Shown: positions 2,237-26,408 of the stretch, in pieces
Numbering within the stretch: position 1 is the first letter of the stretch
Layout of the letters: the number at the start of each line of letters is the position of its first letter
Source: a virus
Reading direction: 5' to 3' (one strand)
Virus record (IMG/VR): IMGVR_UViG_3300038551_000315
Span: 1-26,408 of that record
Length of the DNA stretch: 26,408 bases
Made by a program: the position numbers and the translations under genes
The notes under the pieces: generated by a model
What the model was told of the DNA's origin: nothing
Seen by the model: only the letters and a program-made list of their open reading frames with translations
The model's database searches: none

Positions 2237-4080
2237 CCCAGGACTCCGGCGGGGCGCGCGAGGTGGCGGAAGCCGCCCGCGAAGGGGCGACCTTCCGCGA
2301 GGCGGTCCTGAAGGCGCAGGTCTTCGGCGAGCGAACCATCCCCGCCTCGACGGTGCTCGCGCAGGACGAGCAGGAGAAGGGCTTCGTCGCGGCCGGCGCG
2401 ATCCTTCCGCCCTACAACCCCGAGTCGCTCGCGATCCTCCTGGAGCACAGCAACGCGCTCCGCCAGTGCGTCGACGCCTACTGCGTGAACGTGGAGGCGT
2501 TCGGCCACCGATGGGAGCCGGTCGTCGACCTGGAGTCGGACGACGCGAGGGAACGGATCCGCGCGGCCCTGGAAACGGAGCGCGGGCTGGAGGCGGGGGC
2601 GCCGCCGCCGACGGACGCGGAGGTGACCGCGAAGCTGGAGGAGGTCGCGCGCGAGATGCGGCGCGAGAAGGTCAAGCTCGACGCCTTCTTCGAGTTCTGC
2701 TCCGTCAACGTCTCGTTCCCCGAGCTTCGCCAGATGACGCGCCTCGACCTGGAGACGCACGGCAACGGGTACTGGGAGGTGCTTCGGAACGGCGCCGGCG
2801 CGATCGTTCAGTTCTCGTACGTGCCGGGGCACACGATCCGCCTGATGCCGCTCGACCCGACTCCGGTCGTGGTGGACGAGCCGGTGCGCGTCTCGCCGTT
2901 CCAGTTCGACGCCTACAAGACGCCCCGCCGGTTCCGCCGCTACGTCCAGATCTACGACACGCGGACGGTGTACTTCCGGGAGTTCGGCGACCCGCGGGTC
3001 ATGTCGCGCAAGACGGGACGATACTTCGAGAGCGCGGACGCGCTCGCGAAGGCCGACGCCGCCGACGGGCCGGCGGCGGAGTTGATCCACTTCAAGGTCC
3101 ACTCCCCCCGCTCGGCCTACGGCGTGCCCCGGTGGATCGGGTGCCTGCTCGCCGTGCTCGGGTCGCGGATGGCGGAGCAGGTCAACTACCTCTACTTCGA
3201 CAACAAGAGCGTGCCCCCGCTCGCCATCCTCGTTTCGGGCGGGCGGGTGAACGACGAGACGGCGAGGCGGATCAAGGAGTTCATCGAGAACGACATCCGC
3301 GGGCAGGGCAACTGGCACAAGGTGCTGGTGATCGACGCCGCCGCCGCCGACGACGGCTCGATCAACTCCGGCCGCGCGCGGATCGACATCAAGCCGCTCA
3401 CGTCGGCGCAGCACAGCGACGCGCTCTTCCAGGAGTACGACGCGCGGAACATCGAGAAGGTCGGCAACGCCTTCCGGCTCCCGCGAATCCTCCGCGGCGA
3501 CAGCCGGGAGGTGAACCGCGCCACGGCCGAGGCCGCCATCGCGTTCGCCGAGATCCAGGTCTTTTCCCCGCTGCGCGAGCAGTTCGACTTCTGGATGAAC
3601 CGGCAGATCCTTTCGCGCATGGGGATCCGCTACTGGCGGTTCCGGTCCAACGCGCCGTCCCTGCGCGACCCCGCCGCCCTGGCGGGCGTCGTGCGCGACC
3701 TCGTCAACGCGGCGGTCCTGACCCCGGCCGAGGGGCGCGAGTTGGCCGAGGGGATCTTCAACCGCGAGTTCCGCGTGATCGACGCCGACTGGACGCGGCA
3801 GCCGCTGTCGCTCACGCTCGCCGGGCTCGGGGCGGAGATGGGCGAACCGACGACCGCGGCGCTCCCCGGCGCCGGTCGCGCGGGCGCGCCGGACGAGAAG
3901 CGGCCCCCTGCCTCGCAGCCGTCCGGCCACGTCGCGCCCTGGCTGAAGCGAGCGCGAGACGCGCTCCGCCGCGGGGACGTTCGGCAGGTGGCCGAAGACC
4001 TCGTCGCCGTGCGGGACGAACTGCGCGCGCGAGAGGAGGCGGAGGCCGAGGGCGCCTTCCGCGCGACCGACGGGCACTGA
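2233..4080 (+). CDS. Portal protein (PBSX-type family)
   Basis: The 615-residue protein forms the dodecameric ring at the capsid vertex through which DNA enters and leaves. Its hallmarks are an N-terminal segment with ILPPYNPESLAILLEHS and RQCVDAYCVNVEAFGHRW (about residues 58-95), and the core segment GNGYWEVLRN (about 177-186). The central region reads AYGVPRWIGCLLAVLG (about 296-311), and a clip/stem region contains NIEKVGNAFRLPRILRGDSR (about 406-425). These match the general PBSX-type portal layout. The C-terminal 80 residues are charged and probably helical. ATGA overlap with the lipoprotein stop indicates coupling. The MuF gene begins one base after the stop, the usual portal-MuF pairing. 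Confidence 0.9.
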   Translation: MTQDSGGAREVAEAAREGATFREAVLKAQVFGERTIPASTVLAQDEQEKGFVAAGAILPPYNPESLAILLEHSNALRQCVDAYCVNVEAFGHRWEPVVDLESDDARERIRAALETERGLEAGAPPPTDAEVTAKLEEVAREMRREKVKLDAFFEFCSVNVSFPELRQMTRLDLETHGNGYWEVLRNGAGAIVQFSYVPGHTIRLMPLDPTPVVVDEPVRVSPFQFDAYKTPRRFRRYVQIYDTRTVYFREFGDPRVMSRKTGRYFESADALAKADAADGPAAELIHFKVHSPRSAYGVPRWIGCLLAVLGSRMAEQVNYLYFDNKSVPPLAILVSGGRVNDETARRIKEFIENDIRGQGNWHKVLVIDAAAADDGSINSGRARIDIKPLTSAQHSDALFQEYDARNIEKVGNAFRLPRILRGDSREVNRATAEAAIAFAEIQVFSPLREQFDFWMNRQILSRMGIRYWRFRSNAPSLRDPAALAGVVRDLVNAAVLTPAEGRELAEGIFNREFRVIDADWTRQPLSLTLAGLGAEMGEPTTAALPGAGRAGAPDEKRPPASQPSGHVAPWLKRARDALRRGDVRQVAEDLVAVRDELRAREEAEAEGAFRATDGH

Positions 4081-4081
4081 C

Positions 4082-5137
4082 GTGGAGCCAGCGCGCCGGC
4101 CGTCATGCTCGGAGGCGGCCGAGGCCGCGGCAGGGATCCTCGACTTCGCCTTCCTGGCGAAGGCGCTCAACCCGCAGAACCGACGAGACTTCCTCGTCAT
4201 CCAGCGGCGCGTGGCGCAGGCGCTTCGCAGCGCGACGGCCGACGAGCAGTCGGCCGCGCTGCGCTCCGCGCTTCGCGGGCTCGACCTCGACTGGCCGGGC
4301 ATGACCGCCTCCGGGCGGGAAGCCGCGCTCCGCGCCGTCCGCGCGTCGCTGCGGGGCTCCGCCCGGCGCGTCGCACCGAAGGTGGAGGAGACGCTCATCC
4401 TGCGCTCGACCGACGTGGCGCGGTCGTCCCGCGCCGGGATCGTCGCCCGGTTCAACCTCTCCATCCCGTCGTCGCTTTCCCTCCGCGACGAACGGTTGGC
4501 GGAGTGGTGCGCGTCGAGCCAATCCCTCTTCGTCCGAGACCGGCTCGGCCGCCGCGCGGATGCCCTCTCGCGGCGGGCGAGGGAGATCGTCTCGCAGGGG
4601 TTGGACTCCGGGCTCGGCCGCGACGACATCGCGGAGCGGCTTGCCGGGTTGGCACAGCAGGGGCTCGGCGGCGCGATGCCCTACTGGCAGGTGGTGGCCG
4701 GCGCGTTCGTGGGCCGGACCCGCACCGCGATCAACGTGTCCTCCTTCGCCGAGGCGGGCGTGGAGAAGTACCGGTGGGAGGCCGTGCTGGACGAGGCGAC
4801 CTGCGACTCGTGCCGGTTCCTGCACGGGCGGGAGTTCAGCGTCCGCAAGGCGAGCGAGCGGATCGACGCCGCGTCGAAGCTGTCGGACCCCGAGGGCATT
4901 CGAACGACCCTGCCGTGGATCAACCGCGGGACGGACGACGAGGGTCGTCCGGTGCTCTACTACGGGTCGGGGGACGACCGCAGCCTCGTCGCCCGCGTGG
5001 AGCAGACCGGCGAGGGCGAGCGGGACAGGATCGGGCGGTACGGCGGGGCGATGAGCAGTTCGGCGTTGGAAGCCGCGGGGGCGTCGACGCCCCCGGCGCA
5101 CGGGGGTTGCCGCTGCACGACGCTCGCCGTCGTGTGA
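4082..5137 (+). CDS. MuF-type minor head morphogenesis protein
   Basis: This 351-residue protein belongs to the phage Mu gpF / SPP1 gp7 head-morphogenesis family, which binds the portal and enters the prohead in a few copies. The diagnostic C-terminal pattern is present. A strand-rich segment (EAVLDEATCDSC, cysteines at 241 and 244) is followed by FLHGREF and ends in HGGCRCTTL (H340, C343, C345). In this family these residues are thought to bind a metal. The first 200 residues are helical and arginine-rich, as usual. The GTG at 4082 is one base past the portal stop. No toxin domain is fused at the C-terminus, unlike many MuF proteins. The ATG at 4105 is in a different frame and was rejected as start. 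Confidence 0.87.
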   Translation: MEPARRPSCSEAAEAAAGILDFAFLAKALNPQNRRDFLVIQRRVAQALRSATADEQSAALRSALRGLDLDWPGMTASGREAALRAVRASLRGSARRVAPKVEETLILRSTDVARSSRAGIVARFNLSIPSSLSLRDERLAEWCASSQSLFVRDRLGRRADALSRRAREIVSQGLDSGLGRDDIAERLAGLAQQGLGGAMPYWQVVAGAFVGRTRTAINVSSFAEAGVEKYRWEAVLDEATCDSCRFLHGREFSVRKASERIDAASKLSDPEGIRTTLPWINRGTDDEGRPVLYYGSGDDRSLVARVEQTGEGERDRIGRYGGAMSSSALEAAGASTPPAHGGCRCTTLAVV

Positions 5138-5150
5138 CCGGGGAGGAAGC

Positions 5151-5456
5151 ATGCAAGCCACGGGCACCTGGACGAAGTTGCTGACCGAGGGCCAAATCGC
5201 GGATGTCGTCCGCGCGTTCGAGGCGGCGATCGAGTCGAGCTTCAAGTCGGACGCCGTCCTGCGACCCGTGCGGACGCGGGACGAGATCAAGCGCCGGTTC
5301 GACATCTGCGCGCGCGTCTTCGAGGAGTTGCGCGTCGGGCGGAACTGGTCCATTCCGCGGATCCGCGACGTGCTTCCTCGCCTCCTGCGGTGCGAGCTTG
5401 ACGGGGCGGCGTGGCCGGTGGAAGATGGGCAGTCGTGGTCGCCGGACGCGACGTGA
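5151..5456 (+). CDS. Hypothetical phage protein (101 aa)
   Basis: The ATG at 5151 follows a strong ribosome-binding site (GGGGAGGA), 13 bases after the MuF stop. The protein looks helical. Residues 10-60 alternate charged and hydrophobic positions (IADVVRAFEAAIESSF, RDEIKRRFDICARVFEEL), then comes a short WSIPRIRDVLPRLLR segment. There is no signal peptide or membrane segment. I do not recognise the family. Its position between MuF and the maturation protease suggests a small head or assembly factor, without proof. Confidence 0.75.
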   Translation: MQATGTWTKLLTEGQIADVVRAFEAAIESSFKSDAVLRPVRTRDEIKRRFDICARVFEELRVGRNWSIPRIRDVLPRLLRCELDGAAWPVEDGQSWSPDAT

Positions 5457-5469
5457 AGGGAGTCGAGCG

Positions 5470-5751
5470 ATGGAACTCAAGGAAGTGCTGGAGCAGGCGG
5501 ACCGAGTGGTGAAGCAGGGAAAGTCGCTGCACGCGGAACTCGCGGCGGAGGTCAACAAGGCCGTCGTCGAGAAGGCGTCGAAGCTGGCCGCGATCGCCGA
5601 CGCGGACGAACTCGACAAGGCGGTCAACGACCTCTGCTCGTGCCTGTGGGAGTACCGCACGTTGCGCAGGACGTCGGACGCCATCGCCAAGAACGACGCC
5701 ACCAAGTGGCCGCGCGACATGGCGGTCCCGGCGTCGAAGCCGGCCGCCTGA
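5470..5751 (+). CDS. Hypothetical small helical protein with WPRDM motif (93 aa)
   Basis: The ATG at 5470 has a modest ribosome-binding site (GGGAG). Residues 1-65 look like a helical hairpin or coiled coil (LKEVLEQADRVVKQGKSLHA, then LAAIADADELDKAVNDL), followed by a basic turn. Near the C-terminus is WPRDM (residues 80-84). The scaffold-like protein encoded at 9502-10545 carries the same five residues near its own C-terminus, encoded by an identical 16-base stretch. That suggests a shared docking or processing signal. The function is unknown, but the location just before the protease fusion fits an assembly accessory factor. Confidence 0.72.
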   Translation: MELKEVLEQADRVVKQGKSLHAELAAEVNKAVVEKASKLAAIADADELDKAVNDLCSCLWEYRTLRRTSDAIAKNDATKWPRDMAVPASKPAA

Positions 5752-5760
5752 CCGCGGCGG
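5744..5760 (+). promoter_or_regulatory. Inverted repeat over stop codon at 5749-5751
   Basis: CCGCC (5744-5748) pairs with GGCGG (5756-5760) around a seven-base loop that contains the TGA stop. The repeat lies immediately upstream of the GTG start of the large protease fusion at 5768 and covers most of the place where a ribosome-binding site would be. It could therefore limit initiation there. The stem is short, so chance is possible in such GC-rich DNA. Confidence 0.3.
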
Positions 5761-5767
5761 TGCGCCG

Positions 5768-8700
5768 GTGAAGGTCGCGGAGATCGACCCGACCTCGCTG
5801 AAGGGGGAGCCGGACGATGCGCTCCTCTCGCTGCACCTGCGCCTCCACCAACTGTTCGCGGCGAACTTCGCCGGCAACGACAAGCTCTCCACCGCCGGGA
5901 TGACGCGCGAGGAAGTCGTCAACGCCGAGTTGCTCGTGCAGGCCGAGATGGCGAGGCGCGGGATGAAGCACGAGGCCGACGACGAACTCGCGCGAGAGGC
6001 GGAGGCGCTGCGCCGCTCGACGGAGAAGGGGCTCGCGCCGATCCACCCGAGCGGCGAAGACCGTGGCGACGTGCTCCGCCTCGATGACGTGCTCCCCCAC
6101 TTCCGGTCCTTCAAGCTGCGGATGCCCTTCCTCTACCTCGTCGGCGGGCTGGCGAACAAGGGGGAGACGAAGAACGACATCGACCTGCTCCTGCGCGGGC
6201 CCGTCCCCGAGGAGATGCGCCGAGTGATCGAGTTCCGCCTGGGGCGGATGCTTCCGGCGGAGTTGTCGTCGCGGATCCAACTGCACGACGACGACCTTGG
6301 GGGGCCGTTCACGAGCCACGTCGAACTCGCGGACCTCGTCGTCGAGATGAGGCCCCGGTTCGAGGTGAAGCAGATGCGGCTGGACAAGGCCGACGATCCG
6401 CTGCTCGACTGGCCGACGGCGCGCGGCCCGCGGCCCGCATGCCTCCAGTACCACTTCCGCGGGAAGTCCGTGCACGTCGACCTCCGCTTCCAGGTGACCG
6501 ACTACCTCGTCGGGTGGACGCTCGCGGTTCAGATCGCGGGGGCCGTCCCCGACGTGAGCACCGTCGAGGAGGCGCGGCGGATCGCGGACGCCTTCGACGC
6601 GAACGGCAGCCGATACAACAAGCCCATCGTCGCGCCCGCGAAGGTGTACGCCTCGCCGAAGTCTCGCGAGCCGCTGGAGTGGCTCGACATCAAGGGCGCC
6701 GTGTACGAGCCGGGTTCGGTCGGCGCGACTCGGTTCGAGGAGGGGGTCATCGTCGAGGTGGACCGCCCGAAGGTGGAGTGGGGGCTCCAGAAGCCGTACT
6801 CGCACGAGTACTTCCTGACGGGCGGGAAGCACGTCAACGGGATCCTCTTCTTCCGCATGCTCCAGGGCGGGCGGGAGGAAGGCGGCGTCCCGGCGGGGGA
6901 GACGTTCTGGACCGCGTTCGTGTCGAAGGAGGCTCTGCCTTCCGTTCTGAACCGGCGCGCAGTCGAAACGAAGTCGATGCCGCCGGACGGGAAGTCGGGG
7001 CTGCCCGCGACGCTGGAGTCCGCCGTGCCGGCCGAGTTCCGCTACTGGACGAAGAAGGGCGAGGAGGCGCGGAAGGTCCGAGACGCGCTGGTCGATGCGC
7101 GCGTCTTCACCGCCGACTCCGTCAAGGTCGTGGACGGCCTGTTCCGCCACGTCACGACGAAGATGTTCGTCGGGCGCGAGCCCGAGCGGGCGGCGGTCTT
7201 CCGCGGCCCCGCGTTCGACCGCGAGCCCGAGCCCGTCGGCCCGGAGGAGGTCCCGGCGCTGGCGGCGGGGGCGTTCGCCTACGTGATCGCGGGCGACCCG
7301 TTCGAACTCGCGCTCGCCTGCCGGGCGGTGAAGCGACGCGGCGGTGATTGGGCGATCGACGCACCCGACTCGCCGTACTCGCTCGCCTCGCTCGCGGAGG
7401 TGGGTCGCCCGTTCCGGTCCGGCGGGCGCGCGTACGCGGCGAGCGTGCCGGTGGACGGCGAGGTGGAGTGGATCGAGGTGGCGGAGCCGGTGGAGAAGCA
7501 GCCCCGCCGCGTGCCGTTCGCCCTGTCGTGGCAGTTCTGGAAGGGGCCGACGGTCGTGCGCGCCGCTCCTTCGCGTCAGGTCTGGCGGTTCCTCCTCGGG
7601 GGCGACGACGGGCTGCGCGGCTGGGAACTCGCCGCCGACCCCACCGCGAACGATCGCGCTGCCGGGGTACGCCGGGACTTTCCGAACGACGACCTGCTGA
7701 CCTTCGAGGGCGACGTGCCGCCGGGGGAGAAGGTTGGCGGCGTGCCCCTGAACGAGACGAAGAACACGCCGTCCACGATCGCCGTCGTGGACCGCGGCGT
7801 GGCGGAAGTCCTCGACGAGCAGGCGGGCTTCTTCAAGCTGCGCTTGAGCGGTCGCCACCTGAAGGGGATCTTCACGCTGGTCGCGGAGGGGGCGCAGGAG
7901 GCGATGTGGACGTTCGCCCGCGGCGAGCTTCCCGCCAGGACTGCGAAGGCGGAGTCCGTCGGGCCGCTGAAGCTCGCGGACGGCACCACTCTAGCGAACG
8001 TGCAGTTCTGGGACCCGGAGGGGATGAGCGACGCCGACGACAAGGGCGGCGACCGCGAGCGGCTTCGCCCGCTGGCGATCTTCCAGCCGATGAAGGTCGC
8101 GCCGCGCGCGACGAACGAGTTCCGCCGGCTCGACGAGGTGGCGAAGTTCGCGACGCCCGAGGCGCTGAAGGCCGGGATCGTCGTGGATCCGAAGTACAAC
8201 GGGTATCGCTTCGTCGCGGAGAAGGACGCGGGCGGGCGGATCCTGTGCGCGACGGAGGACTACTTCACGCGGCGAAAGACGCCGCTGCCGAACTACGCGG
8301 CGAACCTGCCGGGCGTGGCTGCCGACTTGAAGGCGCTGCCGGGGCCGTTCGTGCTCGACGGGGAGTTGATGGCCTTCGAAGGCGACCAGCCCGTGCAGCG
8401 CGCTGACCTCGCGCGCTACCGCGCCACGACGGGGCCGGTGGACGACTCCGCCGTGCGCGTGATGGTGTTCCGGGCGCTCTACCTCCCGAAGCACGGCAAC
8501 CTCGCCGCGCAGGCAGAGGAGGACAACCGCGCGCTGGTCGAGGCGTTCCTCCGCCGCGCGAAGCACTTCGCCCCCGCGCCGTACCGGCTGGCGAAGTCCG
8601 AGGTGGCGTTCCACGACGCGATCGCATGGGCGTCGAAGGAGCCCGGCTCGGAAGGGGCGATGTTGAAGCTCGCCTCTTCCAACTACTCCCTCGGCGGCGA

Positions 8701-9469
8701 GAGCGACGCGTGGGCCAAGCTGCGGTCCGTCCGCACGGTGAACGCGATCGTCTACCAGCGGGATCCGGTGAAGGACTCGCCGGGCGTGTACAACTTCCAC
8801 TGCGCCGTCGGCCCCATCCCCGCCTCGTCGCGCGACGAGTGGGAGTCGGTCGTCGAGGTGCGAGGGAAGCTGTACGTCCCGGTCGGCAAGACGTTCAACT
8901 CGGCCGTCGAGGCGGACGTTGGCGATTGCATCTCCGTGGACGTGCGGGAGATCATGGACGACCGGCGCGGCGGGAAGCGGGTGCTGACGTGGTACGTGCC
9001 CGCCGTCGTCGGCCCCGTCGACCGCCCGAGCACGGTCGCCGAGGTGGAGGAGTTGCTGGAGTCCGGCGAAACGCGGAAACTGTCCGCGCTCGACCGCGAG
9101 ATCCCGCTGCTGAAGACGGCCGAGGAACGGTTCGTTCTCGGAATCGTGCTGGAGCCCGAGACGGTGGACGCGCAGAACGACATCTATTCGGCAGAGGAGA
9201 TCCGGCTGGCGGCGCACCGTTTCATGGAGGAGTTCGGCGGGCTCGGCCTGATGCACCGCCAGCGAGTGAACGACCGCGTGAAGGTCCTGGAGTCGTACGT
9301 CGCGCCGTGCGACTTCGAGGAGGGCGGGCAGAAGGTGAAGAAGGGGACCTGGATCCTCGCCGTGCGCGTGCTCGACGACGAGATGTGGCGCGCGGTGAAG
9401 GAGGGAAAACTCACAGGGTTCTCCATCGGGGGCACCGGGATCCGCAGGCCGGAACCACGCGGGGCTTGA
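5768..9469 (+). CDS. Giant fusion: nucleotidyltransferase + two LigD-PE-like domains + ATP-dependent DNA ligase + XkdF/S78 prohead protease
   Basis: The protein has 1233 residues. A helical N-terminus (1-90) is followed by a pol-beta-type nucleotidyltransferase signature: VGG (125-127), then NDID with D137 and D139. Residues about 220-370 resemble the 3'-phosphoesterase (PE) domain of LigD, with H229, then HVDLR (H236, D238, R240) and EPGSVGATR (314-322). A second PE-like copy (about 582-725) keeps the fold pattern (KGPTVVRAAPSR) but lacks the His/Asp/Arg set. An ATP-dependent ligase follows: motif I KYNGYR (K809; Asn replaces the usual Asp at 811), motif III LDGE (863-866), motif IV EGAMLK (962-967), motif V WAKLR (982-986) and an OB-like part to about 1090. 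The C-terminus (about 1115-1230) matches XkdF (Peptidase_S78_2), with H1163 in GLMHR and S1219 in GFSIGG. The GTG start has a weak ribosome-binding site. XkdF-type proteases are normally a few hundred residues or less, so the rest is an exceptional fusion. Confidence 0.85.
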   Translation: MKVAEIDPTSLKGEPDDALLSLHLRLHQLFAANFAGNDKLSTAGMTREEVVNAELLVQAEMARRGMKHEADDELAREAEALRRSTEKGLAPIHPSGEDRGDVLRLDDVLPHFRSFKLRMPFLYLVGGLANKGETKNDIDLLLRGPVPEEMRRVIEFRLGRMLPAELSSRIQLHDDDLGGPFTSHVELADLVVEMRPRFEVKQMRLDKADDPLLDWPTARGPRPACLQYHFRGKSVHVDLRFQVTDYLVGWTLAVQIAGAVPDVSTVEEARRIADAFDANGSRYNKPIVAPAKVYASPKSREPLEWLDIKGAVYEPGSVGATRFEEGVIVEVDRPKVEWGLQKPYSHEYFLTGGKHVNGILFFRMLQGGREEGGVPAGETFWTAFVSKEALPSVLNRRAVETKSMPPDGKSGLPATLESAVPAEFRYWTKKGEEARKVRDALVDARVFTADSVKVVDGLFRHVTTKMFVGREPERAAVFRGPAFDREPEPVGPEEVPALAAGAFAYVIAGDPFELALACRAVKRRGGDWAIDAPDSPYSLASLAEVGRPFRSGGRAYAASVPVDGEVEWIEVAEPVEKQPRRVPFALSWQFWKGPTVVRAAPSRQVWRFLLGGDDGLRGWELAADPTANDRAAGVRRDFPNDDLLTFEGDVPPGEKVGGVPLNETKNTPSTIAVVDRGVAEVLDEQAGFFKLRLSGRHLKGIFTLVAEGAQEAMWTFARGELPARTAKAESVGPLKLADGTTLANVQFWDPEGMSDADDKGGDRERLRPLAIFQPMKVAPRATNEFRRLDEVAKFATPEALKAGIVVDPKYNGYRFVAEKDAGGRILCATEDYFTRRKTPLPNYAANLPGVAADLKALPGPFVLDGELMAFEGDQPVQRADLARYRATTGPVDDSAVRVMVFRALYLPKHGNLAAQAEEDNRALVEAFLRRAKHFAPAPYRLAKSEVAFHDAIAWASKEPGSEGAMLKLASSNYSLGGESDAWAKLRSVRTVNAIVYQRDPVKDSPGVYNFHCAVGPIPASSRDEWESVVEVRGKLYVPVGKTFNSAVEADVGDCISVDVREIMDDRRGGKRVLTWYVPAVVGPVDRPSTVAEVEELLESGETRKLSALDREIPLLKTAEERFVLGIVLEPETVDAQNDIYSAEEIRLAAHRFMEEFGGLGLMHRQRVNDRVKVLESYVAPCDFEEGGQKVKKGTWILAVRVLDDEMWRAVKEGKLTGFSIGGTGIRRPEPRGA

Positions 9470-9501
9470 CAACTGGATTTCGGAGGGTCAGGCTCCAGGG
9501 C

Positions 9502-10545
9502 GTGAAGGGCGAGCGAGACGACGAGGACGAAGTTCGACGGCTCACCGACATGGAAGTCGCGGAAGTCTCGCTCGTCGATCGGGCCGCGAACAAGCGGCGG
9601 TATCTCGTCACGAAGCGAGGTGATGCGATGACGCAGGAGACGGAAGTGCGGCCTGACGGGAAGGGTGGACTGACGGCAGCGCCGCAGGACGTGGAGAAGA
9701 AGAACTCCGGCGCGACGCTCTCCGACTTGGCAGGGAAGCTCCTCGCCATCGCCGAGAAGATCAAGAGCGGCACGGATCCCGGCGAGTTCGCGTCCGACAT
9801 CAAGGCGGCGACGACGGCGCTCGGCTCCGTGGCGGAGAAGTACCCGTCCCCGGCCCACAAGGCCGACGGCGAGCCCGTCGAGAAGGGGCCCGCCGCGGAG
9901 AAGCTGAACGAGGCGCTCCAGCGGCTGATGAGCGTGGCGAACAAGCTGAAGGCCGGCGGGAAGCCGGAGGAGTTCGCCTCCGAACTGAAGGCCATCGCGG
10001 GCCTCGTGACCGGCGTCGCGAGCCAGTACCCCGCGCCCGCGCAGAAGGCGGAGGATGCTCCGACGGCCCCGGCGGCCCCGACCATCGCCGCTCCGGCAGC
10101 GCCCGCGGCGGCGGCCCCGGCGGCCCCGAGCGCACCCCCGGCGGCAGCGTCGGTCGAGAAGGGCTCGAAGATCGCCACCGCCCGGCTCGCCAAGCTGAAG
10201 GAACTGCACGAGACGCTCGGCGCGCTGATCAAGGAACTGGAGCCGGAGATCGGCGGGGAGCCGACGGCGGGCACGGCGCAGAAGGCGACGGAGGACCCCA
10301 TCGCCAAGGCGCTGGCCGACGTGACGAAGACGCTCGGCGAGGTCGCGAAGAAGGTGGACGCGCACGCCGCGACGCTCGACCAGATCGCGAAGCAGGCGCC
10401 GGCGTCGACGGCGGTGCCGGTGGAAGGGACGAAGCAGCCGGTCCAGAAGGGCTCCGTCCCGTGGCCGCGCGACATGACCGACGCGCGGTACGATCGGAAT
10501 CGCGCGAAGCCCGAGACGACGTTCTTCGACCGGGCCGGGAAGTAG
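9502..10545 (+). CDS. Scaffold-like capsid assembly protein with duplicated helical repeat
   Basis: The 347-residue protein is rich in Ala, Lys, Glu and Pro. It lies between the protease and the capsid protein, the usual place of a scaffold or protease substrate. Residues 20-35 read EVAEVSLVDRAANKRR. A VSLVDRPAN-like motif usually lies at the end of S78-type proteases or in the next ORF, and it favours the GTG start at 9502 over ATG 9550 or ATG 9628, although the latter has the best ribosome-binding site (GAGGTG). Two 45-residue helical repeats align without gaps (about 73-117 and 135-179), sharing DPGEFASDIKA/KPEEFASELKA and EKYPSP/SQYPAP. An Ala-Pro linker (about 185-215), more helices and a C-terminal WPRDM (321-325) follow. 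The scaffold role is inferred from context and composition. Confidence 0.78.
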   Translation: MKGERDDEDEVRRLTDMEVAEVSLVDRAANKRRYLVTKRGDAMTQETEVRPDGKGGLTAAPQDVEKKNSGATLSDLAGKLLAIAEKIKSGTDPGEFASDIKAATTALGSVAEKYPSPAHKADGEPVEKGPAAEKLNEALQRLMSVANKLKAGGKPEEFASELKAIAGLVTGVASQYPAPAQKAEDAPTAPAAPTIAAPAAPAAAAPAAPSAPPAAASVEKGSKIATARLAKLKELHETLGALIKELEPEIGGEPTAGTAQKATEDPIAKALADVTKTLGEVAKKVDAHAATLDQIAKQAPASTAVPVEGTKQPVQKGSVPWPRDMTDARYDRNRAKPETTFFDRAGK

Positions 10546-21186: not shown

Positions 21187-23436
21187 ATGGGCAACGACCT
21201 TCTCGCGTCCAAGGTGATCACGACCGAGGCCGCGCCGGGCATCCGGACGCTGCCGGCGCTGGCGACTGCGGTCCTGGGGATCTGCGGGATCTCCGAGCGC
21301 GGTCCGATGGGGGTGGCGACGCTCTGCACGAGCTTCGAGGACTTCGTCCAGAAGTTCGGGGGCGACTTCGCGAACTCGGCCGCCGTGCTCCAGGTGCGCG
21401 GCTTCTTCCAGGGCGGCGGGCAGTTCCTCGTGTTCACCCGGACCTGCCACTACACGGACATCAACACGCCCGCGACGGCCACGGCGACGACGGGGACGAA
21501 GACGCTGAAGACGGCGGTCGTCGCTCCCACGGCCGGCTACTCGCAGGGGTCGGTCGTGGGGCCGTGGGACCTGACGCCCGCCGACACGCTCGTCGTGACG
21601 GTGGACGGGGGTGCCCCGGCGACGGCGACCTTCAACGCGACGGCCGCCGCGCGGCAGAACGGCGTCGACGAACCGTTCGCCCTGGCCGACAGCCAGACGC
21701 TGACGCTGAAGATCGACGAGGGTGCGTTGCAGACCGTGACGTTCCTGACGGGCGAGTTCGTGGACATCGCGAACGCGACTGCCGAGGAAGTCGCGGCCGT
21801 CATCAACGCCAAGATGACGGGGGGCCAAGCGACGGTCACCGGGGGAGGCAAGCGCGTCACGATCACGAGCGACAAGCAGGGGACCGGGTCCGGCGTCAAC
21901 GTCACCGGGGGGACGGCGAACGCGGCACTCCAGTTCACGACTGGGCTCGTCTCCGGGACGGGCAACGTGGCGGACATCAACGCGGTCTCCAACGCCGAGG
22001 CGAAGGCGATCGTCGAGCTTGCCGTCGCGGGGTGCACGGTGACGAGCGTCGGGGGCTGCGCGCGGATCTCCTCGAACACGACCGGTCCGGCTTCCTCGAT
22101 CCTCGTCGGCGCGGCCTCCACGGCCGACGACGAGATGGGCTTTGACAACGCCACGCACAGCGGGGCCAGCGGAGCGGCCGTGGACACGCTGCGGCTGGAC
22201 GGGAAGGATCCCGGCTCCTACGCGAACGACTTCAAGGTTCGCATCGAGGCGGCCACCTCGGGCGTCTCGGAGGAGTTCAACATGACCTTCGAGCGGTCCG
22301 GGATCGCCCTGGAGCGCTTCCCGAACCTCTCGATGGACGACGCCGCCCCGCGCTACGTCGAGACGATCGTGAACGCCGCCGTCGGGGGATCCGTGTACCT
22401 CGCCGGCACCGACCTCGACGCGGTGGCGTCCAGCCAGCGCCCGGCGAACGGGCTCTACGGGCCGCTGACGGGCGGCGGCGACGGGTTGGCAGGCATCGCC
22501 GACACCGACTTCATCGGCTCGGCCGCGGGGAAGACCGGGCTCCGCGCGTTCGACCTGCACACCCCCGTCGACGTGACCATCCTCGCCGTGCCCGACCGCC
22601 CGACGGCGGCCGTGCATCAGGCGATGTACCAGTACAGCGAGGTGCAGGCCGGCAAGCGGATCTTCTGCATCTTCGACCCGCCCGCGAGCATGGACGCCGC
22701 CGCGATCGTGGCGTACTTCACCTCGACGGCTGCGCTGTACGAGGCGACCGAGGTGGGCGCGATGCTCTGGCCCCGGATCAAGGTCTACAACCCGAACAAG
22801 GACGTGTACGGCGATACCGACGACCTCACCGTCTGCAACTCCGGCTACTGGGCCGCCACGATGGCGCGGGTCGACGGGACGCAGAAGCCGGGCATCTACC
22901 AGCCGCCGGCCGGGATCGAGTATGGCCAACTCCTCGGCGTGATCGGGGTCGAGGCGGAGGCGGTGCTCGACGAGTCGGTTCGGGACGTGGTGTTCCCGAA
23001 GAACGTCAACCCGATCAACCTGGGCGCCGGCTACTACGCGGACGGCGGGCGCTGCGCGAAGACGAGCGGGAACTTCGGCACGATCGGCCAGCGCCGCGGG
23101 GCGTCGTTCATCGAGCAGACGCTGAAGGCCGGGATGCTCTTCGCCAAGCACCGCAACAACAACCCGCGCCTCCGCGCCGAGTGCGACCGGACGACCCGCG
23201 CGTTCCTGCTCCAGCAGATGCGGCGCGAGGCGTTCGCCTCGATGGACCCCGACACCGCGTTCGTGATCGACTGGGACGTGCCGGGCCTGGGGCTCAACAA
23301 CGCGTCGGTGCAGCACCAGCGGCTGCTGAAGGCGCGGATCGGCCTCGCCTTCTCGGACCCGGCCGAGTTCGTGTGGATGGAGTTCAGCGCGGACCTGCGG
23401 GCCATCGAGGAGGCGCTGATCCTGGAGGCCGCCTAG
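21187..23436 (+). CDS. Contractile tail sheath protein with large internal insertion
   Basis: The 749-residue protein polymerises around the tail tube and contracts to drive infection. Sheath hallmarks are the N-terminal APGIRTLPALATAVLGICGI and FGGDFANSAAVLQVRGFFQG (about 15-82), and a core around ILAVPDRPTAAVHQAMYQY and YWAATMARVDGTQKPGIYQP. The C-terminal assembly domain includes RLRAECDRTTRAFLLQQMRR and ends VWMEFSADLRAIEEALILEA. Between residues about 100 and 330 lies a beta-rich insertion built of related modules: TLTLKIDEG to ALQFTTG (about 172-249), then a shorter copy to DEMGFDN (about 320). Typical sheaths are roughly 400-660 residues, so the insertion explains the size. The start follows GGGAGGA. 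Confidence 0.92.
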   Translation: MGNDLLASKVITTEAAPGIRTLPALATAVLGICGISERGPMGVATLCTSFEDFVQKFGGDFANSAAVLQVRGFFQGGGQFLVFTRTCHYTDINTPATATATTGTKTLKTAVVAPTAGYSQGSVVGPWDLTPADTLVVTVDGGAPATATFNATAAARQNGVDEPFALADSQTLTLKIDEGALQTVTFLTGEFVDIANATAEEVAAVINAKMTGGQATVTGGGKRVTITSDKQGTGSGVNVTGGTANAALQFTTGLVSGTGNVADINAVSNAEAKAIVELAVAGCTVTSVGGCARISSNTTGPASSILVGAASTADDEMGFDNATHSGASGAAVDTLRLDGKDPGSYANDFKVRIEAATSGVSEEFNMTFERSGIALERFPNLSMDDAAPRYVETIVNAAVGGSVYLAGTDLDAVASSQRPANGLYGPLTGGGDGLAGIADTDFIGSAAGKTGLRAFDLHTPVDVTILAVPDRPTAAVHQAMYQYSEVQAGKRIFCIFDPPASMDAAAIVAYFTSTAALYEATEVGAMLWPRIKVYNPNKDVYGDTDDLTVCNSGYWAATMARVDGTQKPGIYQPPAGIEYGQLLGVIGVEAEAVLDESVRDVVFPKNVNPINLGAGYYADGGRCAKTSGNFGTIGQRRGASFIEQTLKAGMLFAKHRNNNPRLRAECDRTTRAFLLQQMRREAFASMDPDTAFVIDWDVPGLGLNNASVQHQRLLKARIGLAFSDPAEFVWMEFSADLRAIEEALILEAA

Positions 23437-23458: not shown

Positions 23459-23926
23459 ATGGGCGGCGTGATCGGAACCCCCCGCGTCTGGCGGTCGAAG
23501 TGGAAGTTCGTGGTCGAGATCGACGGCGTCGCGTACGCCGGCTTCGAGAAGTGCGACGGGCTGGAGGCGGAGGTCGCCGTCTCGGAGCACTACGAGGGCG
23601 GCGCGATGATCCCCGACAAGTCGCCGCAGCGCGTGAAGTTCAGCGACCTGACGCTGGAACGCGGCGCGTGCCAGGACCAGGACCTGTACGACTGGTTCGT
23701 GGAGGTCGCGAAGGCCGCCGCCGGCACGGGGCTCGTGGACCCCGAGTTCAAGCGCAACCTGGACATCGTCCAGCAGGAGCGGGACGGGTCGGAGATCGAG
23801 CGGTACCGCGTCTTCAACGCCTTCCCGCGCAAGTTCAACCCGGCCTCGGGCGGGTGGGACAACAACTCGGACGACAACCGCGTTGAGCAGGTCGTCCTCG
23901 CGTACGACTACTGGGAGCGCGTCTAG
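23459..23926 (+). CDS. Tail tube protein (T4 gp19-like family)
   Basis: The 155-residue protein forms the hexameric inner tube inside the sheath. It shows the gp19-like beta-barrel order: WRSKWKFVVEIDGVAYAGFE, then KCDGLEAEVAVSEHYEGG, VKFSDLTLERGACQDQDLYD with WF next, and RYRVFNAFPRKFNP close to the C-terminus before VEQVVLAYDYWERV. The length is normal for this family. The ATG follows GGAGGTG within 15 bases of the sheath palindrome. The stop is enclosed in a six-pair inverted repeat. Confidence 0.9.
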   Translation: MGGVIGTPRVWRSKWKFVVEIDGVAYAGFEKCDGLEAEVAVSEHYEGGAMIPDKSPQRVKFSDLTLERGACQDQDLYDWFVEVAKAAAGTGLVDPEFKRNLDIVQQERDGSEIERYRVFNAFPRKFNPASGGWDNNSDDNRVEQVVLAYDYWERV

Positions 23927-23973: not shown

Positions 23974-24717
23974 ATGAGCACCGTCGTCGCGAAGTGCCCG
24001 TCCGGCCTCGAAGTCGAGTTGCGCGGGCTGGAGGTCCGGGAGGCGAACGTCCTCGCCGACCGGCAAGAGATCCAGAGTGGTACGCTGTTCGACAGCGTCC
24101 TGCGAAACTGCACGATCCGACTCGTCGAGCCCGGCCCGTACAAGTTCACCGAGGTGGTGGACTGGGGCGAGGTCCACGTCGGGGACCGCATGTACGCGCT
24201 GATCCAGATCCGCCGCGCGACGTACCCTCGCCCGTACGAGTTCCGCCTGACGTGCGCCGAGTGCCGGGAATCGATCGATTGGATGATCGACTTGGCCGAG
24301 ATCCCCGTCAAGCCGCTGCCGGAGGCGGCGCGCGAGGCGCTCAGGGGTGACCGGATCCTCTCCGCGAAGTGGCCGCAGTTGGAGGACCGCGTCGTCCGCT
24401 TCCGCCTCGTGATCGGGAAGGACGCCGCGAAGGTGCGTCGGATCGCGAAGCAGCGGCCGAAGGAACTCGCGCTCGTCTCCCTCCTGTCTCGCGTCGTGTC
24501 GGTGGAGGGCGTCGAGGAGTCGAAGCTGACGGAGTTCCTGTCGCACCTCGGAGGCGACGCGATGGTCGGACTGATGGAGATCCTCGACGAGTGCGACGGC
24601 GGCGTGGACACGGAGATCCAGGTCGTCTGCCCGCAGTGCGGCGCGCTCCAGGACGTGGAACTCCCTTTCGGTCGGGCCTACTGGCTGCCGAAGGCGCGCC
24701 GGGCGACGATCCTGTAG
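23974..24717 (+). CDS. Tail assembly chaperone, unshifted product (zinc-ribbon type)
   Basis: This 247-residue product precedes the tape measure gene. It begins with VVAKCPSGLEVELRGLEVRE and ends 15 codons after a slippery heptamer. Two CxxC pairs (C94-C97 in TCAEC and C219-C222 in VCPQC) could bind one zinc ion. The sequence resembles T4 gp26-type baseplate/chaperone proteins in its opening motif. In many phages a protein at this position coats the tape measure during tail assembly and is made in short and frameshifted long forms. The ATG at 23974 follows GGAGGGAA. Confidence 0.8.
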   Translation: MSTVVAKCPSGLEVELRGLEVREANVLADRQEIQSGTLFDSVLRNCTIRLVEPGPYKFTEVVDWGEVHVGDRMYALIQIRRATYPRPYEFRLTCAECRESIDWMIDLAEIPVKPLPEAAREALRGDRILSAKWPQLEDRVVRFRLVIGKDAAKVRRIAKQRPKELALVSLLSRVVSVEGVEESKLTEFLSHLGGDAMVGLMEILDECDGGVDTEIQVVCPQCGALQDVELPFGRAYWLPKARRATIL

Positions 24718-24938
24718 CCGCGATCCTGGGCGTCCCCGACCGGGACGCGCTGTGGCGCTCCGTCGCTTCGCTCTGCTACCATCAGCACGGGGGCTCGGGG
24801 TTCACGTTCACGCTCGACGAGGTGATGCGCCTCCCCTACGAGCGCCTCGACTTCCTGTGCCGGCTCCTGGGCGAGTTCCGCGAGCAGGACGCGAAGCGCT
24901 TGAAGCGGGCGGCGGAACAGAGTAGCCTTCCGAAGTAG
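23974..24938 (+). CDS. Tail assembly chaperone, predicted -1 frameshift fusion (321 aa)
   Basis: After Pro231-Phe232 a -1 slip at CCCTTTC moves ribosomes into an open frame that runs to the stop at 24936-24938, so the product joins 23974-24669 to 24669-24938. The added 89 residues begin RSGLLAAEGAPG and continue with DRDALWRSVASLCYHQHGG, FTFTLDEVMRLPYERLDFLC and a charged helix EQDAKRLKRAAEQ. That extension has no start codon with a ribosome-binding site of its own in the right place. Its coding look and place before the tape measure match the long chaperone form (lambda GT principle). Supported by frame geometry and heptamer; efficiency unknown. Confidence 0.82.
24663..24669 (+). promoter_or_regulatory. 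-1 ribosomal slippery site CCCTTTC
   Basis: The heptamer fits X XXY YYZ with zero-frame codons CCT TTC, which re-pair as CCC TTT after a one-base backward slip. It is in the correct phase to join the chaperone gene to the downstream open frame. A downstream pairing (GCC/GGC within a TTCGG/CCGAA repeat, 24667-24692) is possible but weak and overlaps the site. Confidence 0.8.
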
Positions 24939-24950
24939 GAGCGCGGAACC

Positions 24951-26408
24951 GTGCTGAACCAGATGGGCCTGGGCCTCCTCCTCACCGCCAAGGACATGGC
25001 GTCCGGCGTGATCGAGAAGGTACGGGGCGAGTTCGAGAAGCTCGGGGAGGGGTCGGAGGCGGCCGGCGGGCGCTTCAAGGCGGGGTTGGCAGAGTTCGGG
25101 CAAGGGGCAGCGCTCCTCGGTGCCGGGGTCGCCGTGCTTGGGGGGGCGTGGAAGCTGGCGGAGGCTGCGGCTCCGTTCGAGGCATCGATGTCTACTGTGG
25201 GGTATCGAACCAGCGCGACCACGGCAGAGATGGAACGTCTTCGACAGGCTGCGATCGACGCGAGCGCTGGTTTGAAGATCGTTTCTGAGACAGACGCCGC
25301 GCGAGCGATGGCCGTCTTCGCGGAGGGGGGCAACAGCGCTGCGGACACGATGACCACCCTCACGCCGATTCTGAAGTTCGCCAAGGCAAACTTGATGGAC
25401 GTGGGGATGGGCGCGCAGTTCGCCGACAACATGATGGACCTTTATGGTGTGAAGGCGGAAGAAGTCAGCGAGAAGCTGGACAAGGCGCAGTGGGTGATGC
25501 GCCGGTTCGGCATGAACGTCGGAGACCTATCGCAACTCTTCGGCCCTCTCGCGCAACAGGCGAAAACCACGGGGCAGTCGTTCGACGACATGCTCCTCGT
25601 CTTCGGCGCAGCGGCAGAAGTCGCGGGTCCACGCGGAGCGTTTCGCGCGCTCCAGGGCGCCATGATGAATCTTTCGGATCCCGACTTCGGGAAGAAGATG
25701 AAGGCGAACTTCGAAGGTGTAGAGTTCAAGGGGCCGGGCGATACGCTTCGCCCGCTCACGGAACTCCTGCCCGACATCGCCGCGAAGATGGACACGATGA
25801 CCGAGGCCCAACGGGCGAACGCCCTACAGGAGGTCTTCGGAGGAAAGGCTGCGGGCGGGCTTGCCGCGATCCTCGACAAGATGCGGGAAGGCGTGCAGAC
25901 GGCAAGCGGGGCGGTGTACCACGGAGCCGACGCGCTCAAGGCGCTCAACGGCGAGATGCTGAACTCCGCCGGCGAAGTAGATCGGGCGTTGAATGCGATG
26001 TCCCCGTACGATCGGGCAATGCAAGAAGCAAAGGCATCCTGGGACAACATGAAGCGCTCACTCGGGGAAGCGTTCCTTCCCGCGTTCACCACCGCGATGA
26101 ACTGGCTGAGTGACAAACTGGAGGGAATCGCGAAAGGATGGCGGGAGCTTTCCCCCTCCACTCGTGAGTTCCTGGGCACGCTCGCGGTAGTCCTCGGCTA
26201 CGTGCTCGTCGGGGTCGGCGCGTTCAAGATGATCGCGGGGGCGATCGGCATGGCGCGCTCTGCGATGCTCCTGTTCAACGTTGCCGCCGCCGCGAATCCG
26301 ATCACGCTCGTCATCCTCGCCATCGCCGCCCTCGTCTTGTGGTGTTACTACGTGTACAAGCACTGGGAGGACTTCTACAACTTCTACGTGGAAACCGGAG
26401 AGGCCATC
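24951..26408 (+). CDS. Tail tape measure protein, TP901 type (3' truncated)
   Basis: The frame is open from GTG 24951 to the window end (486 codons, no stop). It sets tail length and is threaded inside the tube. The GTG has GGAG nine bases upstream, while the in-frame ATG at 24963 has no such site. A Gly/Ala-rich hydrophobic stretch (about 53-67) is followed by the TP901-like core: FEASMSTVGY (about 75-84), LRQAAIDASAGLK, MAVFAEGGNSAADT, FADNMMDLYGV, GDLSQLFGPLAQQAKTTGQS, GPRGAFRALQGAMMNLSDP and NALQEVFGGKAAGGLAAIL. C-terminal hydrophobic segments follow at about 408-435 and 448-465 (NPITLVILAIAALVL), usual in tape measure proteins. A/T-ending codons are more frequent than in the head genes. 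Confidence 0.9.
   Translation, partial: MLNQMGLGLLLTAKDMASGVIEKVRGEFEKLGEGSEAAGGRFKAGLAEFGQGAALLGAGVAVLGGAWKLAEAAAPFEASMSTVGYRTSATTAEMERLRQAAIDASAGLKIVSETDAARAMAVFAEGGNSAADTMTTLTPILKFAKANLMDVGMGAQFADNMMDLYGVKAEEVSEKLDKAQWVMRRFGMNVGDLSQLFGPLAQQAKTTGQSFDDMLLVFGAAAEVAGPRGAFRALQGAMMNLSDPDFGKKMKANFEGVEFKGPGDTLRPLTELLPDIAAKMDTMTEAQRANALQEVFGGKAAGGLAAILDKMREGVQTASGAVYHGADALKALNGEMLNSAGEVDRALNAMSPYDRAMQEAKASWDNMKRSLGEAFLPAFTTAMNWLSDKLEGIAKGWRELSPSTREFLGTLAVVLGYVLVGVGAFKMIAGAIGMARSAMLLFNVAAAANPITLVILAIAALVLWCYYVYKHWEDFYNFYVETGEAI

Follow-up and report, generated by a model that had tools for sequence, protein, structure and literature searches.

The -1 frameshift by which a tail assembly chaperone gene gives the G and GT forms is an established principle (Xu, Hendrix and Duda 2004; reviewed in PMC5009743). 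In the review's account of lambda, a short chaperone and a -1 long form are encoded between the tail protein and tape measure genes, and in systems of this type a canonical heptamer stands shortly before the first frame ends, several of them having no known stimulator that is needed (PMC5009743). In all of this lambda is like the locus described here, which differs from it in that its chaperone belongs to PF12322 and not to gpG, its heptamer is CCCTTTC and its tail is contractile. The review, where it turns to T4, still gives this phage as the exception to G/GT frameshifting (PMC5009743), and T4-like tail assembly chaperones have been identified by Vladimirov, Gautam and Davidson (2022), as cited in PMC10885494 and PMC12846349. 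T4 gp26 and gp51 are in the same PF12322 family as the chaperone analysed here, the difference being that T4 has two separate genes where our locus has one gene and a C/T-type -1 site. The 2022 study is reported to give the names of these chaperones as genes 26 and 51 of T4 and to describe frameshifting in several T4-like groups.

Other described sites differ in their motif. T4-like phages are reported with polyT sites (PMC12846349). At the TAC locus of Pakpunavirus Adele and the Vandenendeviridae, which we liken to ours by locus and not by family, an unannotated extension reached by a -1 frameshift stands before the tape measure gene, as it does here, although the motif in Adele is GTTTTT (PMC12846349). 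The slippery class CCCUUU is shared with the West Nile virus site C_CCU_UUU, which, unlike ours, belongs to a eukaryotic virus and requires a downstream pseudoknot (PMC11507841). Among the literature matches listed, there was no paper linking CCCTTT or CCCUUU to a tail assembly chaperone. The principle of frameshifting is already known, and what the present locus adds is a contractile phage group from a little-studied, T4-related branch. One more such group would make a gp26/gp51-type chaperone by frameshifting, within a family that takes in these T4 hub proteins, and a stretch that databases label as a separate hypothetical protein would receive a corrected gene model.

A PF12322 chaperone gene between tube and tape measure

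The window, by which we mean the whole stretch of DNA that was analysed, is a metagenomic virus record from IMG/VR of 26,408 bases. The features considered here are all on its plus strand, in the order sheath, gp19-type tube, 247-aa chaperone, -1 extension and tape measure. The tail sheath gene (21187–23436) matches phrog_15814 (3.1e-163) and the tail sheath family phrog_17610 (2.4e-32), and the tail tube gene of the gp19 type (23459–23926) matches PF06841 (1.2e-27). Between the tube gene upstream and the tape measure gene downstream lies the chaperone gene, whose zero frame (TAC-N; 23974–24717) encodes the short form of 247 aa. The tape measure gene starts with a GTG at 24951 and is truncated by the end of the window (24951–26408; PF10145, 2.4e-19; phrog_991, 5.4e-46); its Shine-Dalgarno sequence AGGAG, located by eye at 24937–24941, overlaps the stop codon of the extension.

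The 247-aa protein matches the profiles of PF12322 (1.1e-10, 42 bits, cut-off 24.5) and phrog_150 (1.8e-15), and in the same type of scan this family was also matched by gp26 (8.8e-64) and gp51 (3.9e-52) of T4. The window chaperone thus belongs to PF12322, as T4 gp26 and gp51 do, and therefore the earlier work on T4-like chaperones applies to it. An AlphaFold2 model built from ten sequences (pLDDT 86) is folded up to about residue 230, and the codons of the proposed slip (residues 231–232) stand where this predicted fold ends. The top PDB match among 350,542 chains is 2OB9 (HK97 tail assembly chaperone, gp13), a weak one (E 0.19) whose superposition covers residues 1–87 only (Z 6.1, 73 residues, rmsd 3.3) and is tied with 3FGX at 5.8; the predicted viral structures that match the model are T4-like hub proteins (4e-14 and weaker).

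The CCCTTTC heptamer and its conservation

Read from the ATG at 23974, the zero frame runs through ctC CCT TTC, which puts CCCTTTC (24663–24669) in exact X XXY YYZ phase and, as the sequence-only reading had proposed, in register to join the chaperone frame to the frame that follows. The zero-frame stop (24715–24717) comes 15 codons past the heptamer, and the -1 frame has 91 open codons from the heptamer start and 89 after the slip, the number that this reading had given, with its stop at 24936–24938. The extension (TAC-C; 24669–24938, 89 codons plus stop) does end twelve bases (24939–24950) before the tape measure GTG, carries both the FTFTLDEVMRLP segment and the charged tail ascribed to it, and matches the phrog_20255 profile (7.9e-11); the stretch between the slip and the extension domain is a poorly conserved linker. 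The claim that the extension has no ribosome-binding site of its own was borne out as well: its earliest ATG, GTG or TTG after the slip is codon 54, within the conserved domain, which leaves no usual start at which translation could begin independently ahead of the conserved part. In-phase heptamers of the form XXXYYYZ occupy 8 of 5944 positions in the 14 genes of the window, X being different from Y in only 3 of them, and CCT makes up 9 of the 280 proline codons of the window genes. Exactly one canonical in-phase heptamer falls in the last 50 codons of the chaperone gene.

Searches with the chaperone, either as a single protein or as an alignment, gave few relatives; a motif pattern and a tail sheath alignment gave more. 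The pattern was blind to the heptamer (Cx2C ... Q-D/E-V ... P-F-G, all codons allowed) and led to 66 loci with one site each. A -1 extension of at least 37 codons is present in five of them (L023, L028, L048, L061 and L066), and all five have CCCTTTC; in the remaining 61 the -1 stretches span only 4–24 codons and none has this heptamer. The five loci represent four lineages, the window counted in: L023 and L048 share one sequence at this place, L061 is the contig of L006, and L066, truncated by its contig end, is near-identical to the window. Finding the heptamer at the same place in homologues had been suggested as a check, and it stands there, in the same phase, in L006, L005 and L028. The chaperones of the window, L006 and L005 are only 32–37% identical, and those of the homologues are only 20–41% identical to that of the window. 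The sheath search added L099 (CCCTTTG), L105 and L106 (CCCTTTC in a different protein context, at the end of the chaperone gene), and L102 and L104 (TTTTTTC), with every site in phase and the extension open in -1. Nine new loci from this search were examined; L107, L108 and L109 gave no chaperone match and that of L110 was truncated by the locus end, so that these four were excluded from the site count. L128 and L129, 83% identical to L099, retain CCCTTTG. L099 and L128 have TTG (Leu) in place of the zero-frame Phe codon, with CCCTTT unchanged, which points to selection on bases and not on amino acids.

Prokaryote genome contigs scanned with a DNA pattern returned eight matches, all of them by chance and none in a PF12322 gene. 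In L006, a TnpB-like frame recognized by eye (5678–6883, minus strand) separates the extension from the tape measure gene, and before it, at about 5620, there is an apparent disrupted copy of the beginning of the tape measure gene.

The probability of a canonical heptamer at this site, given the protein, was calculated under a synonymous null with the codon usage of each locus. It was 0.017 for the window, 0.048 for L006, 0.018 for L005, 0.0009 for L099, 0.12 for L105 and, with a usage from just 236 codons, 0.23 for L028. The product is about 1.7e-7 for the four homologues without the window (L006, L005, L028 and L099) and 3.5e-10 for all six sites if they are independent, which is not fully the case because the relatives share descent. 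When only the chaperone gene supplied the codon usage, the probabilities for the window, L006, L005, L028, L099 and L105 were 0.066, 0.118, 0.044, 0.19, 0.0043 and 0.117; when the heptamer was allowed at any place in the last 34–50 codons they were 0.04–0.36 over the six loci, and 0.10 for the last 50 codons of the window alone. Past the zero-frame stop, L099 and L128 differ at 14/75, 7/76 and 33/76 of the first, second and third positions of the -1 codons, and similarly in the zero-frame body at 29/219, 14/219 and 78/218 of the corresponding positions. Judged from this pair, the -1 frame past the zero-frame stop is coding and under selection.

Proposed decoding and its alternatives

We propose that the window chaperone gene undergoes a programmed -1 frameshift at CCCTTTC, yielding a short and a long form, a reading to which we give a probability of about 0.93. 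Its observed basis is made up of the phase, the open frame, the lack of a start, the conservation of the heptamer in divergent relatives, the selection on the -1 frame seen in one pair of relatives, and the family membership; the ribosomal shift, its rate and the role of each form are what we infer. Most ribosomes would terminate at 24717 and yield the 247-aa short form. In a minority of them, the tRNA-Pro on CCT and the tRNA-Phe on TTC would each move back by one base, onto CCC and TTT respectively, after which these ribosomes would read on through 24935 to give a chaperone of about 321 aa, with the predicted junction ...VELPF-RSGLL... (VELPFR then SGLLAAEGAPGDDPVAAILGVPDR). Tandem -1 slippage, from CCU UUC to CCC UUU, would be the simplest reading of the site. 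The roles would follow those established for lambda gpG/gpGT: the N-part common to both forms would make a coat on the tape measure protein, the extension would bring in tail tube subunits, and the proportion of short to long form would be set by the slip.

The best surviving alternative, although highly improbable, is the one embodied in database annotation (e.g., phrog_20255), in which the extension is a separate small gene with its own start after the chaperone. That phrog_20255 exists as a stand-alone family of 63 positions and that public annotations put small CDSs within the extension agree with it, but the late first start of the window is repeated in L028, where it is extension codon 62, and the one ATG that L099 has upstream of the extension domain (codon 44) is CTG in its close relative L128. 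Also in its favour, the zero-frame stop of Atu_ph07 is overlapped by an ATG. Against it, all the -1 relatives have the -1 frame open from their heptamer onward, and the homologous genes of bacteria are in-frame fusions. The sequence-only reading had set against itself the case of two independent genes with ribosome-binding sites, which was not seen in the -1 group.

Less probable still is a shift at another point of the overlap, or one toward +1/-2 like that of the marine relatives described below. The extension frame of the window is -1, even though homologous extensions occupy +1 in other branches, and the conserved heptamer is the sole canonical in-phase one among the last 50 codons. A +2 shift could also reach the -1 frame, but no +2 site was seen. 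The earlier choice of -1 over +1 holds for the group of the window and for CCCTTTC, with no +1 case at either, and does not extend to distant homologues, which have +1 (equal to -2) at other sites. The weakest explanation is that the break is an artefact of sequencing or assembly, or that a deletion has split a decayed gene. The metagenomic origin of the record might suggest this, but it is contradicted by the recurrence of the break, at this very position, in assemblies and lineages that are unrelated, by purifying selection on both frames and by a second contig that is identical.

Regarding stimulatory elements, the 65 nt after the site were folded for six sites and no stable conserved structure was found (z of +0.74 in the window and +0.64, +0.89, -0.01, -1.68 and +0.10 in the others); a 3′ RNA structure as stimulator was rejected for these six sites, with z between -1.68 and +0.89. 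Transcript slippage was also set aside, because no homopolymer at the site exceeds three bases. On the 5′ side, relatives have AAGAGGT or GGGAGGT seven bases upstream of the heptamer, and the window has only the weaker purine-rich AGGACGTGGA (24650–24659), which is a possible internal Shine-Dalgarno stimulator; this element is confounded with the conserved Q-E/D-V protein motif.

The extension in other phages and in bacteria

PF12322 was found in 13 of 295 bacterial genomes of one phylum and in 2 of 296 of another, and the 15 genes (L111–L125) all continue in frame into a LLREVHLLASAYGW.E.DIL.M...R-type tail, as recognized by eye. As in-frame fusions, they would therefore make only the long form. 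The three fused loci that were tested all adjoin sheath and gp19 tube genes, and in one of them, L111, PF12322 and DUF6760 (PF20546) are in one protein, the latter with 29.6 bits (cut-off 27). The extension of the window is below this cut-off (13.4 bits vs 27; 0.081), and a search for DUF6760 in 10 virus records, 7 prokaryote genomes and T4 gave no match above it; no mention of DUF6760 was found in the scientific literature searched. Six profile comparisons were made, of which one had too few sequences. The -1 extension profile aligned end to end with the bacterial tails (P 1.8e-4) and with the +1 extensions (P 9.6e-7). Two of the six, with T4 gp51, did not reach significance; the extension aligned with the gp51 tail in the expected place, with P of 0.23 and 0.5–0.62 in the comparisons made with this tail, which are short of significance. 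In the T4 locus (L097), the PF12322 genes 26 and 51 are at 3803–4429 and 4480–5229, and gp51 has about 48 residues past the PF12322 domain, with a pattern that is like the extension but not significant.

The other 61 pattern loci have a frame of 41–73 codons in +1, whose start codon is not conserved (L065, L068). In the marine +1 branch, CAGGAGGT is present in 29 of 29 unique regions and TTTTTTT in 28. These marine T4-like phages (L013, 2300–2650, and about 60 other pattern loci) have an invariant AGGAGGT, a small conserved hairpin and TTTTTTTGG at the end of the chaperone gene. In the hairpin, located between AGGAGGT and the T7 run, 113 of 116 informative cells pair, compared with 101 ± 2.4 in codon shuffles; none of 2000 shuffles reaches the observed pairing, a proportion which, the sequences being related, is not a probability. 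The AGGAGGT-hairpin-T7 arrangement is likely a frameshift module, with a direction unlike that of the window. Among phage records, 13 were found and eight considered, the rest being near-duplicates. The extension is in +1 in six of the eight (Mel-JY01, LR756508, immuto, SP-15, vB_SagM-GXN1 and LIS04) and in -1 in LR756511 and Atu_ph07, the last of which could use an ATG. The +1 extension begins near xCC CGA TTY in Bacillus SP-15 (L084, 2219–2443), Listeria LIS04 (L086, 2192–2422) and Streptococcus GXN1 (L085, 2204–2494), and is absent from public annotation in these phages or has a short CDS inside.

A broader proposal, for which we see the chances as evenly divided, is that one homologous pair of chaperone and extension may be decoded in several ways: by -1 in the group of the window, at CCCTTT(C/G), by +1 or -2 in other phages (in the marine ones with the AGGAGGT-hairpin-T7 module upstream of and at the slip), in frame in the bacterial sheath-tube loci, and as two genes in T4. 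If so, evolution would have changed the direction of the frameshift yet kept the short/long pair, and in the marine branch a 5′ hairpin would serve to bring an internal Shine-Dalgarno close to where the shift occurs. The -1, +1/-2 and fused homologues offer material to test the need for short and long forms and the direction of the slip.

Elsewhere in the window, positions 5768–9469 form a single 1233-aa frame with an ATP-dependent DNA ligase domain (4e-11), which ends in an XkdF-type prohead protease (6.9e-28). Near the end of this frame there is an in-phase GGGAAAA (9403–9409), past which a long -1 frame (8626–10545) runs, and this heptamer may be due to chance or may be a second recoding site.
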